Of a DNA stretch of 64,000 nucleotides, positions 16,420 to 40,172 are shown in pieces. The notes under the pieces are model-generated. The model was not told where the DNA came from. It did no database searches and saw only the letters and a program-made list of their open reading frames with translations. The DNA lies in contig NZ_JOJL01000008.1 in assembly GCF_000721705.1 (NCBI RefSeq), positions 337,704 to 401,703 on the forward strand, given 5' to 3'. A program made the position numbers and the translations under genes. The stretch's first letter is position 1; each line of letters starts with the position of its first letter. The stretch is from Actinoplanes subtropicus. GTDB lineage: Bacteria; Actinomycetota; Actinomycetes; Mycobacteriales; Micromonosporaceae.

Positions 16420-16722
16420 GTGACCGACTTCGCCGCTGCGATCGACCGCCTGCTCAACCAGGTGCGGCACTGGGAGCAACCACGCTGGCGCAACGGCAAA
16501 GCGGACCAGGTCTACGCGCTGGTCCAGCACCTCGCCGACCTGGCGGCCGACGCCGAGTCCCGCCCCCACCGCCCGGTCCCCCGCGAGCCCGACGTCATCC
16601 TCCCCGACCAACTCCGCGTCATGGCCGACGACCTCATCGCCGCCGCCCCCGCCGCAGCCGCCCCCAACGCAGTCCTAGCCGAGGCCGCCGAAGCAGTCGA
16701 CCTCCTACGCAAAAACCTATAA
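16420..16722 (+). CDS. Small conserved-looking protein of unknown function
   Basis: A 100-aa soluble, helix-rich protein (start MTDFAAAIDRLLNQV) with alternating charged and Ala-rich stretches. It is not recognised. Codon use (strong third-position GC) fits a real gene, and a TACGCT box 7 nt before the GTG suggests a leaderless message. It is followed by a long repeat-filled gap. Confidence 0.65.
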   Translation: MTDFAAAIDRLLNQVRHWEQPRWRNGKADQVYALVQHLADLAADAESRPHRPVPREPDVILPDQLRVMADDLIAAAPAAAAPNAVLAEAAEAVDLLRKNL

Positions 16723-16824
16723 AAACCGCCGAGCCCGGCCGCTCCAAGCAGACCGAACCCGGCGGAACCCCTACCCCGCCACTTCCGTGAACCCCTCACC
16801 ACAGAACGGCGATCGACTCCCGGG

Positions 16825-16969
16825 GCCCCGTGCCGTGTAACGGCCCGGCCCGCGGTCACTCCCGGGCCTCCCGGTGCCCCGTGCCGTGTAACGGCCCGCG
16901 GTCACTCCCGGGCCTCCCGGTGCCCCGTACCGTGTAACGGCCCGCGGTCACTTCCAGGCCTCCCGGGGT
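16825..16969. repeat. Three tandem copies of a 46-51 bp unit
   Basis: Units begin at 16825, 16876 and 16922 with GCCCCGTGCCGTGTAACGG (or a one-base variant) and end in CCTCCCGG. A fourth copy of the first half begins at 16970 and forms the left flank of the palindromic element. The array is therefore an amplified flank of that element rather than an independent repeat. Confidence 0.9.
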
Positions 16970-17128
16970 GCCCCGTATCACGTAACGGCCCGCGATCGCC
17001 CCGCTGATGAGGAGACAGTCGATTTTCGAGACCGTGGGGTTTGCGGTCTCGAAAATCGGCTGGCTCCTCATCAGCCCCGAAGGGGCGATCGCCCGCGGCG
17101 CCGAAGGCGACGCCAGCCAGCTCAGCCG
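16970..17128. repeat. Palindromic dispersed element, copy A
   Basis: A perfectly centred hairpin has arms at 17004-17034 and 17044-17074 (31 bp each, two mismatches) and a 9-base loop. The outer flanks are GCGATCGCCCC (left) and, on the right, GGGGCGATCGCC followed by a run of GGCGCCGAAGGCGACG type to about 17128. Flanks match copy C at 40.0 kb (opposite orientation) almost base for base, while the inner stem differs but stays paired. Copy B at 37.9 kb lacks the stem. No transposase is encoded. It resembles REP/MITE-type non-autonomous elements. Confidence 0.9.
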
Positions 17129-17160
17129 CACGGGACGGCCAACTCAGTCAACTCAACTCA

Positions 17161-17268
17161 GCTCAACCGCTCGACCCAGCTCAACCGCTCGACCCAGCTC
17201 AACCGCTCGACCCAGCTCAACCGCTCGACCCAGCTCAACCGCTCGACTCAACTCAACCGCTCGACAAC
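17161..17268. repeat. Six 18-bp tandem repeats at thiolase 3' end
   Basis: The unit GCTCAACCGCTCGACCCA starts at 17161, 17179, 17197, 17215 and 17233, with a diverged sixth copy at 17251 inside the gene. The sixth unit encodes the last residues of the thiolase (VVERLS, read on the minus strand), so the array is a serial duplication of the gene's own end, beyond its stop codon. Confidence 0.92.
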
Positions 17269-18492
17269 CATCGCCATGCCCTGGCCGCCGCCGACGCACA
17301 TCGTCTCCAGGCCGATGGTCTTGTCCTGCCAGTCGAGGGAGTTCAGCAGCGTGCCGGTGATCCGGGCGCCGGTCATGCCGAACGGGTGGCCGACCGCGAT
17401 CGCGCCGCCGTTCACGTTCAGCTTCTCGATCGGGATGCCCAGGTCCTGGTACGACGGGATGACCTGGGCCGCGAACGCCTCGTTGATCTCGACCAGGTCG
17501 ACGTCGTCGATGGTCATGCCGGCCCGCTTCAGCGCCTGCTTCGACGCCTCGACCGGGCCGAGGCCCATGATCTCGGGGGAGAGGGCGGTCACGCCGGTCG
17601 ACACGATCCGGGCCAGCGGGGTGATGCCCAGCTCGCGTGCCTTGGTGTCGGTCATGATGACCACCGCGGCCGCGCCGTCGTTCAGCGGGCAGCAGTTGCC
17701 GGCGGTGACCCGGCCGTCGGGGCGGAACACCGGCTTGAGCCCGGCCACGCCCTCGACCGTCACGCCCGGCCGGGGGCCGTCGTCCTTCGAGACCACCGTG
17801 CCGTCCGGCAGCGTCACGGGAGTGATCTCGCGCTCCCAGAAGCCGTCCGCGATCGCCTTCTCGGCGAGGTTCTGCGACCGTACGCCGAACTCGTCCATCT
17901 CCTGGCGGGAGATGCCCTTGATCTGCGCCAGGTTTTCGGCGGTCTGTCCCATCGCGATGTAGATGTCCGGAACCTTGCCGTCCTCGCGCGGGTCGTGCCA
18001 GACCGTGCCGCCCTTGGCGGACGCGGCGGTGCGCGCCACCGCCTCGGCGAAGTACGGGTTCTGCCAGCTGCCGCCGACCAGGGCCGCAGCCTCCGGCGGG
18101 AGACCGTCCGAGCTGCCCCGGGCGTACCGGGAAACGGTTTCGACGCCGGCCGAGACGAAGATGTCGCCCTCGCCGGCCTTGATGGCGTGGAACGCCATCC
18201 GGGAGGTCTGCAGCGAGGACGAGCAGTAGCGGGTGATGGTCGCGCCGGGCAGGCCGTCCAGCCCGAGCTTGGTGGCGACCACCCGGGCCATGTTGAAGCC
18301 CTGCTCGCCGCCGGGCAGGCCGCAGCCCAGGTAGAGGTCTTCGATGAGAGTGCGGTCGAGCTGGGGCACCTTGTTCAGCGCGGCATCGACGATGGTGGTG
18401 GCGAGATCGTCGGGGCGCAGGTCTTTGAGCGATCCCTTGACGGCCCGGCCGATCGGGGAGCGCGCGGTGGCGACGATGACAGCTTCCGGCAT
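17248..18492 (-). CDS. Acetyl-CoA C-acyltransferase (thiolase)
   Basis: A 414-aa thiolase that condenses or cleaves acyl-CoA with CoA (acetoacetyl-CoA or beta-oxidation type). The catalytic set is complete: nucleophilic Cys90 in RYCSSSLQT, His369 in GHPFG and Cys399 in CVGGGQG. Length matches the family. The ATG at 18492 (MPEAVIVATARSPIG) is the usual start; a GTG nine bases earlier is less likely. No other beta-oxidation genes are adjacent, so substrate chain length cannot be inferred. Its 3' end has been amplified into an 18-bp array. Confidence 0.95.
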   Translation of the reverse strand: MPEAVIVATARSPIGRAVKGSLKDLRPDDLATTIVDAALNKVPQLDRTLIEDLYLGCGLPGGEQGFNMARVVATKLGLDGLPGATITRYCSSSLQTSRMAFHAIKAGEGDIFVSAGVETVSRYARGSSDGLPPEAAALVGGSWQNPYFAEAVARTAASAKGGTVWHDPREDGKVPDIYIAMGQTAENLAQIKGISRQEMDEFGVRSQNLAEKAIADGFWEREITPVTLPDGTVVSKDDGPRPGVTVEGVAGLKPVFRPDGRVTAGNCCPLNDGAAAVVIMTDTKARELGITPLARIVSTGVTALSPEIMGLGPVEASKQALKRAGMTIDDVDLVEINEAFAAQVIPSYQDLGIPIEKLNVNGGAIAVGHPFGMTGARITGTLLNSLDWQDKTIGLETMCVGGGQGMAMVVERLS

Positions 18493-18540
18493 GAGCACCA
18501 CGTTAACTGGTCAGTAACAACGTCTGCGAGTGCGGATTTG

Positions 18541-22336: not shown

Positions 22337-22556
22337 CCCTTTGCTCTGCGCACCATGACGCGCTGCTCTGCGCACCATGACGCGCTGCTCTGCGCACCAT
22401 GACGCGCTGCTCTGCGCACCATGACGCGCTGCTCTGCGCACCAAGACGCGCTGCTCTGCGCACCAAGACGCGCTGCTCTGCGCACCAAGACGCGCTGCTC
22501 TGCGCACCTACGTCATGGTGCGCAGAGCAGCGCGTATAGGTGCGCAGAGCAAAGGG
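22337..22556. repeat. Palindromically capped 22-bp tandem array in convergent gap
   Basis: Eight direct 22-bp units (CTCTGCGCACCATGACGCGCTG and A/T variants) begin at 22344, 22366, 22388, 22410, 22432, 22454, 22476 and 22498, followed by two inverted units. The outermost 18 bp (22337-22354, CCCTTTGCTCTGCGCACC) recur as a perfect inverted copy at 22539-22556. It fills the whole gap between the convergent cbs and protease genes, so it can fold into long hairpins and may act as a two-way terminator. Confidence 0.92.
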
Positions 22557-22564
22557 CCGCCGGC

Positions 22565-28913: not shown

Positions 28914-29212
28914 AACTGAGCTTCTCCAGAAATGGGCTCCAGGTACGGGTCGACCCCCGGGGTCTTCCACGCACACGCGTGGTCCGGTCGGACAAGGCCG
29001 GATCCCCGGGGGTCGGGTGGCTGCCTGAGTTTCGCCGGACCGCTGCCACACGGTCTCGACGCTTTTCGTCAAACAGAACGAAGCTGTCGAGGACAGCGGC
29101 TAGCGGACAGCCACCTCACGAGTCCCGTTGGTATACAACTTCGGACCACCTCCCTTCACGTGTACGGCCACGTTATCGAGAGCGCCCCGAGCGCGCCAAC
29201 GTTTTTAAATCA
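28914..29212. other. Intergenic region, no gene seen
   Basis: About 300 bp between the start of RNase Z and the 3' end of the PPK2 gene on the same strand. It carries an AT-rich patch near 29205-29220 (TTTTTAAATCAC) and TATACAAC near 29132 that could belong to the RNase Z promoter. I see no coding frame with good evidence. Confidence 0.5.
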
Positions 29213-36611: not shown

Positions 36612-37856
36612 ATGAGTGGCGTACCGCTGGATCTGTTGTCCCTCAGCGACGTGGAGGCGGCGCGCGAGCTGCTGACCGGGGTCGTCGAGACCACCCCGGT
36701 GCTGCAGTCACGGCCGTTGTCCGAGGTCACCGGGGTGCCGACCTGGCTCAAGTGCGAAAACCAGCAGCGGGCCGGCTCGTACAAGGTGCGCGGGGCGTAC
36801 ACCCGGATCGCTCGTCTCTCCGCCGATGAGCGCAAGCGCGGCGTCGTGGCCGCCAGCGCCGGGAACCACGCGCAGGGCGTAGCCTTGGCGGCCGAACTGC
36901 TCGGCGCGAGCGCGACGGTCTTCATGCCGGAGGGCGCGCCGCTGCCGAAGGTGACCGCGACCAGGGGATACGGCGCGGCGATCGAGTATGCGGGGACCAG
37001 CGTCGACGATGCGCTGGAGGCGGCGAAGCACTTCGCGGCCGAGACCGGCGCGGTCTTCATCCACCCCTTCGACCACCCGGACATCATCGCCGGGCAGGGC
37101 ACCGTCGGCCTGGAGATCCTCGAGCAGCTACCGGCGGCGGCCACGATCGTGACGGCGGTGGGTGGCGGTGGGCTGATCTCCGGCCTGGCGGTCGCGGTCA
37201 AAGCTCTTCGACCGGACGTACGGGTGGTAGGTGTCCAAGCGCAGGGTGCGGCGGCGTTTCCGCCCTCGCTGGCGGCCGGCGCGCCGCGCAAGCTCGCCCG
37301 GGCCGCCACGATCGCCGACGGCATCGCCGTGCTGCGGCCCGGCGACCTGACCTTCGCGCACGTCAGCAAGCTGGTCGACGACGTGGTGACGGTGACCGAC
37401 GAGGACCTGTCGGCGGCGCTGCTGGTGCTGCTGGAGCGGCACAAGATGGTGGTCGAACCGGCCGGCGGTGCGGCGGTGGCGGCGCTGCTGACCGGCGCCT
37501 GCGTGCCGGCGACGGGCGGCCCGGCGGTGGCGATCCTCTCCGGCGGCAACATCGACCCGATGCTGCTGCTCCGGGTCATCGAGCACGGGCTCACCTCGGC
37601 CGGCCGCTTCCTGCGGCTCGCGGTGCGCTGCGACGACCGGCCGGGGGAGCTGGCCCGGCTGCTCGGGGAGATCGCGGAGCAGCGGGCGAACGTGGTGGAT
37701 GTGGCGCATTCGCGACAGAGCCCACGGCTGGGCTTCGGCGAGGCGGAGGTGGCGCTGTCGGTCGAGACCCGCGGCCCCGACCACTCGGCGGCCCTGATCA
37801 GCGCCCTGCGAGCCGCCGGCTACCGGGTGGCGCCCCTGGCCGACGCCACCCCCTAA
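36612..37856 (+). CDS. ilvA: Threonine dehydratase with ACT domain
   Basis: A 414-aa PLP enzyme deaminating threonine to 2-oxobutanoate for isoleucine synthesis. PLP Lys58 in AGSYKVRGAY, the phosphate loop VGGGGLISG, and a C-terminal ACT domain (about 335-410: LAVRCDDRPGELARLL) for amino-acid feedback. It follows the amidase by 21 bp. No ribosome-binding site is strong; CACGATT-type sequence upstream could be a weak -10. Downstream lies a degraded copy of the palindromic element. Confidence 0.95.
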   Translation: MSGVPLDLLSLSDVEAARELLTGVVETTPVLQSRPLSEVTGVPTWLKCENQQRAGSYKVRGAYTRIARLSADERKRGVVAASAGNHAQGVALAAELLGASATVFMPEGAPLPKVTATRGYGAAIEYAGTSVDDALEAAKHFAAETGAVFIHPFDHPDIIAGQGTVGLEILEQLPAAATIVTAVGGGGLISGLAVAVKALRPDVRVVGVQAQGAAAFPPSLAAGAPRKLARAATIADGIAVLRPGDLTFAHVSKLVDDVVTVTDEDLSAALLVLLERHKMVVEPAGGAAVAALLTGACVPATGGPAVAILSGGNIDPMLLLRVIEHGLTSAGRFLRLAVRCDDRPGELARLLGEIAEQRANVVDVAHSRQSPRLGFGEAEVALSVETRGPDHSAALISALRAAGYRVAPLADATP

Positions 37857-37892
37857 CCGCTGCGATCACCCCCGCAAACACCCCCGATCCTG

Positions 37893-37983
37893 CAGGGTGC
37901 CCCGCAGCCGGGTTCGGCCCGCGCTCCCCAGGGGCGATCGCCCGCGGCGCCGGAGGCGACGCCAGCCAGCTCAGCCAGCCAGC
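37893..37983. repeat. Dispersed element, copy B (stem deleted)
   Basis: It keeps the outer parts of the element (GGTGCCCCG, CGGCCCGCG and the GGGGCGATCGCCCGCGGCGC run with GGAGGCGACGCCAGCC), but where copies A and C have a 70-bp hairpin there is only CTCCCCA. A short CCAGCTCAG tandem follows. It is a deletion derivative lying at the 3' end of greA, as copy A lies next to a gene 3' end. Confidence 0.85.
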
Positions 37984-38478
37984 TCAGCCCTCGAAGGGAC
38001 CGAACTCGACGACGGTGACCTTGATGTCGGCGCCGCTGGGGGCCGTGTAGGTGACCGTCTGGCCGGTGCCGACGCCGAGGATCGCCTTGCCGAGCGCCGA
38101 CTCCGGGCTGTACACGGTGAGGTCGGTGGTCGACGCGATCTCGCGGGACCCGAGCAGGAACGTCTCGGTGTCGGTCTTGTCGTCGTCGAAGTAGATCGTC
38201 ACGACCGAGCCCGGCTGCACCGAATCGGCCGTCGAGGCCTCGCCGACCTCGGCGTTCCGCAGGAACTCCTTCAGATACTGAATGCGGCCTTCCTGTTTGC
38301 CCTGCTCCTCCCGGGCAGCGTGATAGCCACCGTTCTCCCGCAAGTCGCCCTCCTCGCGGCGAGCGTTGATCTCCGCAGCGACGGCGGGCCGCGCGGCGAT
38401 CAGCTCGTCAAGCTCGGCCTGCAGCCGGTCGTAAGCGTCCTGAGAAAGCCAAGTCTTGGGCGCCTCTGAACTGGACAC
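37984..38478 (-). CDS. greA: Transcription elongation factor GreA
   Basis: A 164-aa protein with the GreA coiled-coil (ARREEGDLRENGGYHAAREEQG, carrying the acidic tip residues) and the C-terminal domain with SPESALGKAILG. It stimulates transcript cleavage in backtracked RNA polymerase. GTG at 38478 behind AAGGAG. Its stop abuts copy B of the palindromic element. It begins the greA-DUF4307-mca cluster. Confidence 0.96.
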   Translation of the reverse strand: MSSSEAPKTWLSQDAYDRLQAELDELIAARPAVAAEINARREEGDLRENGGYHAAREEQGKQEGRIQYLKEFLRNAEVGEASTADSVQPGSVVTIYFDDDKTDTETFLLGSREIASTTDLTVYSPESALGKAILGVGTGQTVTYTAPSGADIKVTVVEFGPFEG

Positions 38479-39126: not shown

Positions 39127-40008
39127 GTGACCGAGCAGCTGCGCCTCATGGCGGTGCACGCCCACCCCGACGACGAGTCGAGCAAGGGCGCGGCGACCAT
39201 GGCGAAATACGTCGCCGAGGGCGCGAGTGTGCTGGTCGCCACGTGTACCGGCGGCGAGCGCGGCAGCGTGCTCAACCCGAAGATGGACCGGCCCGAGGTG
39301 CTCGCCGACATCGCCAACATCCGCCGCGCCGAGATGACCAAGGCGCGCGAGATCCTCGGCGTCGACCAGGCATGGCTCGGCTTCGTCGACTCGGGCCTGC
39401 CCGAGGGCGACCCGCTGCCGCCGCTGCCCGAGGGCTGCTTCGGCCTGCAAGACCCGGAGGAGGCGGCGAAACCGCTGATCAAGCTGATCCGCGAGTTCCG
39501 GCCGCACGTCATGACGACGTACGACGAGAACGGCGGCTATCCGCACCCCGACCACATCATGTGTCACAAGGTGTCGGTGGTCGCCTTCGACGCGGCCGGC
39601 GATCCGGAGAAATACCCCGAGCTCGGCGAGCCGTGGCAGCCGATGAAGCTGTACTACAACTCCGGCTGGACCAAGGCGCGGATGCTCGCGCTGCACGAGG
39701 GCATGCTGGCGGCGGGCCTGGAATCGCCGTACACGGAGTGGCTGGAGAAGTGGTCCGACCGCGACGACCGCGGTGACAAAATCACCACCCGCGTCGAGTG
39801 CGGGGAGTACTTCCACGTCCGGGACGACGCGCTGCGAGCGCATGCGACCCAGGTCGACCCGGAGGGGTTCTGGTTCCGGATCCCCCTCGACCTGCAGCAG
39901 AAGGTGTGGCCGACCGAGGACTTCGAGTTGGCGCGCTCGCTGGTCGACAGCCCGGTGCCGGAGTCCGATCTGTTCGCGGGGATCCACGATCGGGTCGAGG
40001 CCTGCTGA
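39127..40008 (+). CDS. mca: Mycothiol S-conjugate amidase
   Basis: A 293-aa zinc amidase that cleaves mycothiol S-conjugates to release mercapturic acids for export. The HAHPDDE motif (His13, Asp15-Asp16, Glu17) and the later [10 protein letters not shown] zinc site are intact. Length and start ([17 protein letters not shown]) fit the family. GTG at 39127 behind TAGAGGAG. A marker of mycothiol-producing Actinobacteria. It is immediately followed by copy C of the palindromic element. Confidence 0.96.
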
Positions 40009-40172
40009 GCTTGCTGGCGTCGCCTCCGGCGCCGCGGGTGATCGCCCCTTCGGGGCTGATGAGGAGGCAGCCGGTTTGCGACGCCGCAATCCCCGCGGCG
40101 GCGCAAACCGGCTGCCTCCTCATCAGCGGGGCGATCGCGGGCCGTTCCCGGATACGGGGCACCCCGCAGATA
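40006..40172. repeat. Palindromic dispersed element, copy C
   Basis: Inverted relative to copy A. Hairpin arms at 40056-40087 and 40095-40126 (32 bp each, one mismatch) enclose a 7-base loop. The flanks (GGCGTCGCCTCCGGCGCCGC on one side, GGGGCGATCGCGGGCCGTT on the other) match copy A with few changes, but the stem sequence differs at many positions with both arms changed together. It begins at the mca stop codon, so the hairpin may form at the end of the mca transcript. Confidence 0.9.

Follow-up and report, generated by a model that had tools for sequence, protein, structure and literature searches.

The window, that is, the whole 64,000-nucleotide stretch of the Actinoplanes subtropicus genome analysed here, contains two related hairpin elements, copies A and C, which lie in inverted orientation and share 88% identity across 163 nt. 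The arms of copy A (17003–17034 and 17044–17075) are 32 nt long with 94% complementarity, and those of copy C (minus strand, 40055–40087 and 40095–40127) are 33 nt long with 97% complementarity. RNA folding gave z-scores of −8.5 for copy A and −10.0 for copy C, with 0 of 200 shuffles folding equally well. The first-pass annotation had described A and C as inverted copies of one hairpin, and this description held. Three features were missing from it: an outer helix (16992–17002 paired with 17082–17092), the 3′ tail, which is conserved, and copy B, a third copy at about 37890–37990 that has no hairpin. The fold spans 16992 to 17092 in copy A and, on the minus strand, 40138 to 40038 in copy C. 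The features are as follows:

16817..16994, plus strand, 5′ domain of copy A, a 46-bp tandem array of 3.7 units whose last unit enters the outer helix (tandem-repeat and repeat search)
16992..17002, plus strand, 5′ arm of the copy A outer helix P1 (GCGATCGCCCC), a covarying helix
17003..17014, plus strand, 5′ arm of the copy A lower stem P2a (GCTGATGAGGAG)
17015..17063, plus strand, copy A upper stem P2b, which bears the mismatches conserved across the family, with its loop GGGGTTT
17064..17075, plus strand, 3′ arm of the copy A lower stem P2a
17076..17081, plus strand, one-sided bulge CCCGAA of copy A between P2a and P1, on the same side in the other copies inspected
17082..17092, plus strand, 3′ arm of the copy A outer helix P1 (GGGGCGATCGC)
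17099..17109, plus strand, tail mini-hairpin P3 of copy A (CGCC-GAA-GGCG, a GNA triloop)
17110..17125, plus strand, 3′ tail of copy A, with CTCAG as the element's 3′ end
17248..18501, minus strand, thiolase gene, convergent on copy A
37890..37990, plus strand, copy B, hairpin-less, its 5′ domain joined to AGGGGCGATCGCCCGCGG... and its tail partly duplicated
40005..40037, minus strand, tail of copy C, whose TCA is the stop codon (TGA, 40006–40008, plus strand) of a PIG-L family gene (39127–40008, plus strand)
40038..40048, minus strand, 3′ arm of the copy C outer helix P1
40049..40054, minus strand, one-sided bulge CCCGAA of copy C
40055..40127, minus strand, copy C stem P2 and loop
40128..40138, minus strand, 5′ arm of the copy C outer helix P1

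Copies A and C are built alike: an 11-bp outer helix P1 (GCGATCGCCCC/GGGGCGATCGC or a close variant), a 12-bp lower stem P2a (GCTGATGAGGAG/CTCCTCATCAGC) with the upper stem P2b above it, a GGGG-rich loop, a six-base bulge on the 3′ side, and then the tail with its CTCAG end. Copy B sits between predicted convergent ORFs at 36612–37856 (plus strand) and 37984–38478 (minus strand). Hairpin-deleted copies were also seen elsewhere (L019, L025, L029, and genome G040 at the rpsD junction described below), and such copies are consistent with deletion of the palindrome. The flanks are non-coding, as the first-pass annotation required, apart from the tail of copy C, which provides a gene's stop codon. 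No transposase had been noticed nearby, and as far as tested this stood, Pfam finding none among the 14 window ORFs scanned.

Between copy A and the thiolase stop codon lies an 18-bp tandem repeat (17159–17265, 5.9 units, CAGCTCAACCGCTCGACC), through which one minus-strand frame reads as repeated RAVELG. Another tandem repeat (22342–22508; 22 bp, 7.6 units, 99% match) is followed by a complementary inverted segment at 22511–22560. At the element itself, Rfam 15 gave no family at the gathering cut-off, and 11 of its 18 sub-threshold matches were to miRNA families. The sole window match at cut-off, to the actinobacterial sRNA family Ms_IGR-5 (28945–29163, minus strand, 103 bits), is a feature distinct from the element. 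CTGATGA...GAA is the hammerhead core motif and its occurrence was suggestive, but a hammerhead ribozyme was rejected because in the fold CTGATGAGGAG pairs along its whole length with CTCCTCATCAG.

Family, fold and folding strand

In the window's genome, BLAST with copy A returned 84 rows, full and partial, with palindromes counted on both strands, and the exact outer-stem pattern occurred at 13 places. Five of 24 copies in this genome carry an identical 69-nt hairpin (two loop directions pooled). Hairpins are mostly 69–73 nt, inside an element of about 130–190 nt; ERIC/IRU-type repeats of different bacteria, by their general description, are likewise structured, long palindromic intergenic sequences of roughly 130 nt. 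Searched for over 84,980 species (one genome each), the outer-stem pattern was found in 17 stretches. Of these, 16 belong to Actinoplanes or Paractinoplanes and one to a Nitrospirae contig, the last with flanks that by eye are unlike those of the Actinoplanes copies. The Nitrospirae hairpin (L052, 1445–1531) has the same 11-nt outer stem, with GGTCGCTTCGCTCC flanking it and a GCTTCGC motif that resembles the Actinoplanes tail; it is probably a product of chance.

A first covariance model, R1, matched 50 of the 67 genomes of the genus at E ≤ 0.01, and a second, R2 (41 copies), matched 54 of them at E ≤ 1e-6. A listing for the window's genome has 51 matches, many of them palindromic copies counted on both strands. 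With no more than 10 candidates scored per genome, so that its copy numbers are lower bounds, R2 matched 0 of 283 other genomes of the family at E ≤ 1e-6, and absence outside the genus holds at that sensitivity. Plasmid and phage collections had no match to copy A (blastn, E ≤ 1e-5), and an origin from either was rejected on that ground. In the open-licence literature we found no description of a repeat of this kind in Actinoplanes. Judged from sequence, the family would be a genus-specific, non-autonomous mobile element of about 130–190 nt. The dispersal claimed in the first-pass annotation extends to a multi-copy family, also mobile in that shared junctions hold it in opposite orientations. 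Within genome G020, contig C1 has 42 tail matches, 35 at 0.2–4.0 Mb, one at 5.2 Mb and six at 9.4–9.9 Mb, with none from 5.2 to 9.4 Mb; copies seem limited to part of the chromosome.

Comparisons were made on 178 oriented copies, the best-scoring matches rather than every copy, from 172 distinct places. Six rows are places duplicated with shifted ends (L130, L134, L136, L137, L143 and L146); they are included in 178-row counts (such as loop inversion, tail, REP tag and T-run), in the looser site grouping, the close-pair comparison and the 24 copies of the window's genome, and dropped from 172-copy counts. Loci L044–L060 belong to alignment A1 and model R1 and stand outside the 178 rows, and some may repeat genomes with G handles. 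R2 retained just two outer P1 pairs, so P1 was judged by arm alignment, which rewards Watson–Crick pairs only and weights all mismatches alike, and by RNAalifold of A1.

The arms had been said to change together, and the wider sample bore this out, first in 27 copies, where 13 of 44 predicted pairs had a two-sided change that kept pairing, and then in 172, where 34 of 43 stem pairs occurred as at least two Watson–Crick types, 22 as at least three and 10 as all four. P2a was Watson–Crick in 1,872 of 1,892 cells (172 copies). The first-pass annotation had weighed the prospect that further stems might vary without pairing; the further copies kept it. At orthologous positions, 31 same-orientation groups (93 copies, both gene flanks homologous) yielded 126 usable pairs, which are related copies and not independent events. 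Double changes that kept pairing outnumbered single changes in P2a (293 versus 46) and in P1 (173 versus 59, plus three other double changes). In P2b, one-sided changes were the more frequent (348, against 257 double changes that kept pairing), with a further 92 double changes involving at least one non-Watson–Crick form. Mismatches in P2b are conserved by position, one pair being A-G in 60 and T-C in 16 of 118 representatives. The 20 closest independent copy pairs (<8% divergence) had 10 double and 16 single changes. Maintenance of the folded form is strongly supported.

Because shared ancestry makes pair counts non-independent, wobble pairs were compared in 118 representatives at 88% identity. 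With columns omitted where a mismatch type exceeded 8%, there were 75 G-T and 21 A-C pairs (p = 2.7e-8), and G-T led in 20 of 26 informative columns. By helix, the ratio was 22:6 in P1 and 42:10 in P2b, and the 11:5 of P2a fell short of significance. Were only double-stranded DNA relevant, G-T and A-C would be expected to be equal, since each is the other read from the opposite strand. The excess of G-T therefore points to the plus strand of copy A as the strand whose folding is constrained, whether in the form of RNA or of single-stranded DNA. By setting, G-T:A-C was 45:4 at convergent sites, 14:10 at (−,−), 11:7 at (+,+) and 5:0 at divergent sites; the bias did not track the direction in which neighbours are transcribed, and a simple cis-RNA from the sense strand of a flanking gene was rejected.

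Of 178 rows, six have a loop that runs opposite to its flanks, implying that arm-to-arm template switching or recombination occurs in DNA and could itself transfer changes between arms. Template switching has been proposed (PMC8794818) as a route to multi-site compensatory change in RNA hairpins. The strand-asymmetric wobble and the position-specific conserved mismatches argue that selection acts too. Since the wobble bias coexists with loop inversion and with double changes in close pairs, we infer that selection holds the pairing and that correction of one arm by the other during replication contributes as well. The first-pass reading of pairing-preserving changes as selection on the folded form was upheld as regards maintenance of the fold and qualified by the inverted loops, which reveal a DNA-level route that could copy changes from arm to arm.

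The 3′ tail typically consists of GCGGAGCGAAGCGGAGCC followed by a variable stretch to CTCAG, and its GC-GNA-GC motifs overlap. In 169 of 178 rows the tail had a triloop motif of the GNA or AAA type, a count made without a chance control, and nine rows had no recognisable tail mini-hairpin motif. Perfect tail hairpins of 7–8 bp with GAA or GGA loops occur in L131, L132 and L192; the GCGAAGC DNA mini-hairpin is exceptionally stable. The tail end could be placed by pattern in 151 of 178 rows, and in some of these the pattern halted at an inner CCAG. After 19 of the 151 placed tails (17 distinct places) there were extra 3′ tail units, and of 29 unit matches 22 ended exactly at the element 3′ end, two ended one base short and five ended seven to nine bases short, with starts varying from 17 to 81 nt upstream of that end. 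Copies truncated at the 3′ end are also present (L109, L122, L124). The extra units look like 3′-anchored, 5′-truncated copying, a pattern that tandem duplication could mimic.

Gene junctions and candidate movers

The junction between rpsD and a convergent ABC-transporter gene was compared in 30 genomes. The element lies one way in five of them (G068, G077, G011, G066, G003) and the opposite way in two (G074, G041), G002 has the 3′ half only (5′-truncated), and in G040 the hairpin is gone. No element was recognisable in 21 of the 30: eight have stop codons 0–10 nt apart, and the other 13 show, by eye, a longer spacer, a hairpin of another kind or a neighbour that differs. More widely, 10 of 100 junctions carried the element in opposite orientations in different species, both flanks being homologous. 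Judged by comparison of homologous junctions, these arrangements showed that the element is mobile and has reached the same gene junctions repeatedly, facing either way.

Gene calls were made with a codon-bias heuristic. When sites were collapsed by same orientation, 58 of 108 were convergent, 29 (−,−), 14 (+,+) and seven divergent, and the same gene caller set the convergent baseline at 8 of 46 for adjacent gene pairs of the window and at 19 of 259 for the other gene pairs of the fetched loci. At codirectional sites, the stop codon lay beside the tail rather than beside the other end by 29 to 14 (p = 0.03); under a looser grouping of sites the convergent share was 51 of 98 and the codirectional split 29 to 11 (p = 0.006). 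Of 143 right-hand stop codons, 75 lay between −30 and +35 nt relative to the core end. Part of this gene-end bias can be put down to selection against damage to genes; that very narrow junctions have been used again and again suggests targeting or benefit.

No gene family recurred at more than three sites among the predicted ORFs beside copies, and at these loci no autonomous partner of the kind a MITE has came to light. The Y1 transposase domain (Y1_Tnp) had 0 candidates in the window's genome, and of the 67 genomes of the genus 21 had any. Reverse transcriptase (RVT_1) was found in 45 of the 67, including 11 of the 13 without an R2 match, and several copy-rich genomes, among them G018, G019, G010 and G063, lacked it; a reverse transcriptase was rejected as the mover, its presence not being tied to copy-rich genomes. 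Within 8 nt of the plus-strand foot, 2 of 178 rows had the REP tag GT[AG]G, where the random control had 6.2, and 3 had CGTC (control 8.2), with none of either on the minus strand. The tail matches of G020 divided 18 and 24 by strand (arrays counted per unit), without strong strand bias. A T-run (four or more T in the next 8 nt) followed none of the 178 rows on the plus strand and 15 of them on the minus strand, and a scan of 16700–17400 for intrinsic terminators found none. The element is not a textbook intrinsic terminator and has no U-tract.

Explanations for the element

We favour, with a probability of roughly 0.55, a non-autonomous mobile hairpin that is kept at gene 3′ ends, probably as a transcription stop, and in which selection and arm-to-arm correction together keep the pairing. 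One strand (plus of copy A) would fold into P1, a long P2 that bulges on one side and has mismatches conserved in the family, and a tail hairpin with a GNA triloop. An enzyme acting in trans may recognise this folded strand, copies would land, or be retained, beside stop codons, and the settled hairpin may help to end or protect the transcripts of flanking genes.

Alternatively, the element could be a host-serving bidirectional terminator, or a 3′-end RNA structure, spread by recombination, with mobility incidental and the stem selected via the transcripts of both flanking genes. Sites between convergent stop codons and a nearly mismatch-free P2a, as expected if both strands fold, agree with this, as do GC-rich hairpins seen by eye downstream of rpsD in several genomes without the element at that junction (for example, G010, G044, G046 and G048). 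In PMC5381666, terminators of convergent genes evolve by compensatory switches, and bidirectional intrinsic terminators share with the element a GC-rich hairpin between convergent genes, Watson–Crick switches and a G-U off state in excess of A-C. The element differs from them in being far longer and without a U-tract, in its conserved tail and bulge, and in forming a dispersed homologous family that jumps. Asymmetric wobble and fixed upper-stem mismatches are ill-suited to a symmetric role, the family was found in one genus only at the sensitivity used, with the same junction lacking it in many species, and opposite orientations at 10 junctions mean insertion of the whole element; we regard a bidirectional terminator as possible but unlikely. 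The covariation might also be mainly a mutational artefact, template switching or recombination copying mutations from arm to arm with selection on the fold unneeded. The inverted loops and the double changes already common in the closest pairs point that way, and arm correction also predicts pairing at orthologous junctions. The mechanism has been proposed for RNA hairpins (PMC8794818); the template-switch-maintained hairpins of that work have the same multi-site compensatory signature, and loop inversion here fits the same process, although that work concerns RNA genes and ours a dispersed mobile repeat. Neither the excess of G-T over A-C (75:21) nor position-specific P2b mismatches adjoining a near-perfect P2a is predicted by arm copying, which makes a mainly mutational origin rather improbable.

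By genomic habit the element resembles the REP/REPIN palindromes associated with RAYTs, which PMC3733652 describes as dispersed, multi-copy extragenic palindromes near stop codons with convergent enrichment. According to the same paper, the repeats of REP-rich genomes are found chiefly between ORFs that are unidirectional or convergent, and for two species most of those between convergent ORFs come within 20 bp of both 3′ ends; our element, too, lies near 3′ ends and is enriched between convergent genes, and its hairpin has internal mismatches. REPs as described there measure 20–40 bp and have a GTAG/CGTC foot, whereas here a hairpin of about 70 nt sits in an element of 130–190 nt with no such foot and the tags fall below the random control. 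The element further departs from REPs in its stem, free in sequence while paired, in its 3′ tail with a GNA-triloop motif, and in the absence of a Y1 transposase from the window's genome; the G020 tail matches, in a genome with the replication origin unmapped, were without strong strand bias. We rejected a REP/RAYT identity on tag, size and transposase, and movement by any Y1 (RAYT/IS200-like) transposase is very unlikely. The slightest chance goes to a bacterial SINE-like element, whose RNA would be copied by a reverse transcriptase to give 5′-truncated copies with a common 3′ end. The extra tail units that end exactly at the element 3′ end (22 of 29) from varied starts, and the lone 5′-truncated copy at the rpsD junction of G002, are what such copying would leave; against it are the distribution of RVT_1, lacking in copy-rich genomes and present in most R2-negative ones, the existence of 3′-truncated copies, and tandem duplication as a possible mimic.

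The favoured mobile hairpin kept at gene 3′ ends might, more tentatively, represent an undescribed class of mobile element whose identity resides in the way one strand folds (P1, P2 and its fixed mismatches, bulge and GNA-triloop tail) and not in a sequence, inserted in a 3′-anchored manner beside stop codons by an enzyme that is neither RAYT nor reverse transcriptase, and supplying 3′ ends to convergent genes. We consider this proposal doubtful as a whole.

Bacterial dispersed palindromes are as a rule identified by their sequence. The present family combines wide sequence drift with pairing kept, including at orthologous positions across a genus, and offers a natural test bed for an old question, compensatory change by selection through G-U intermediates versus template switching between arms. 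It is also a case of mobile DNA repeatedly filling stop-to-stop junctions, some only a few bases wide, and so bears on the origin of bacterial 3′ UTRs and terminators.
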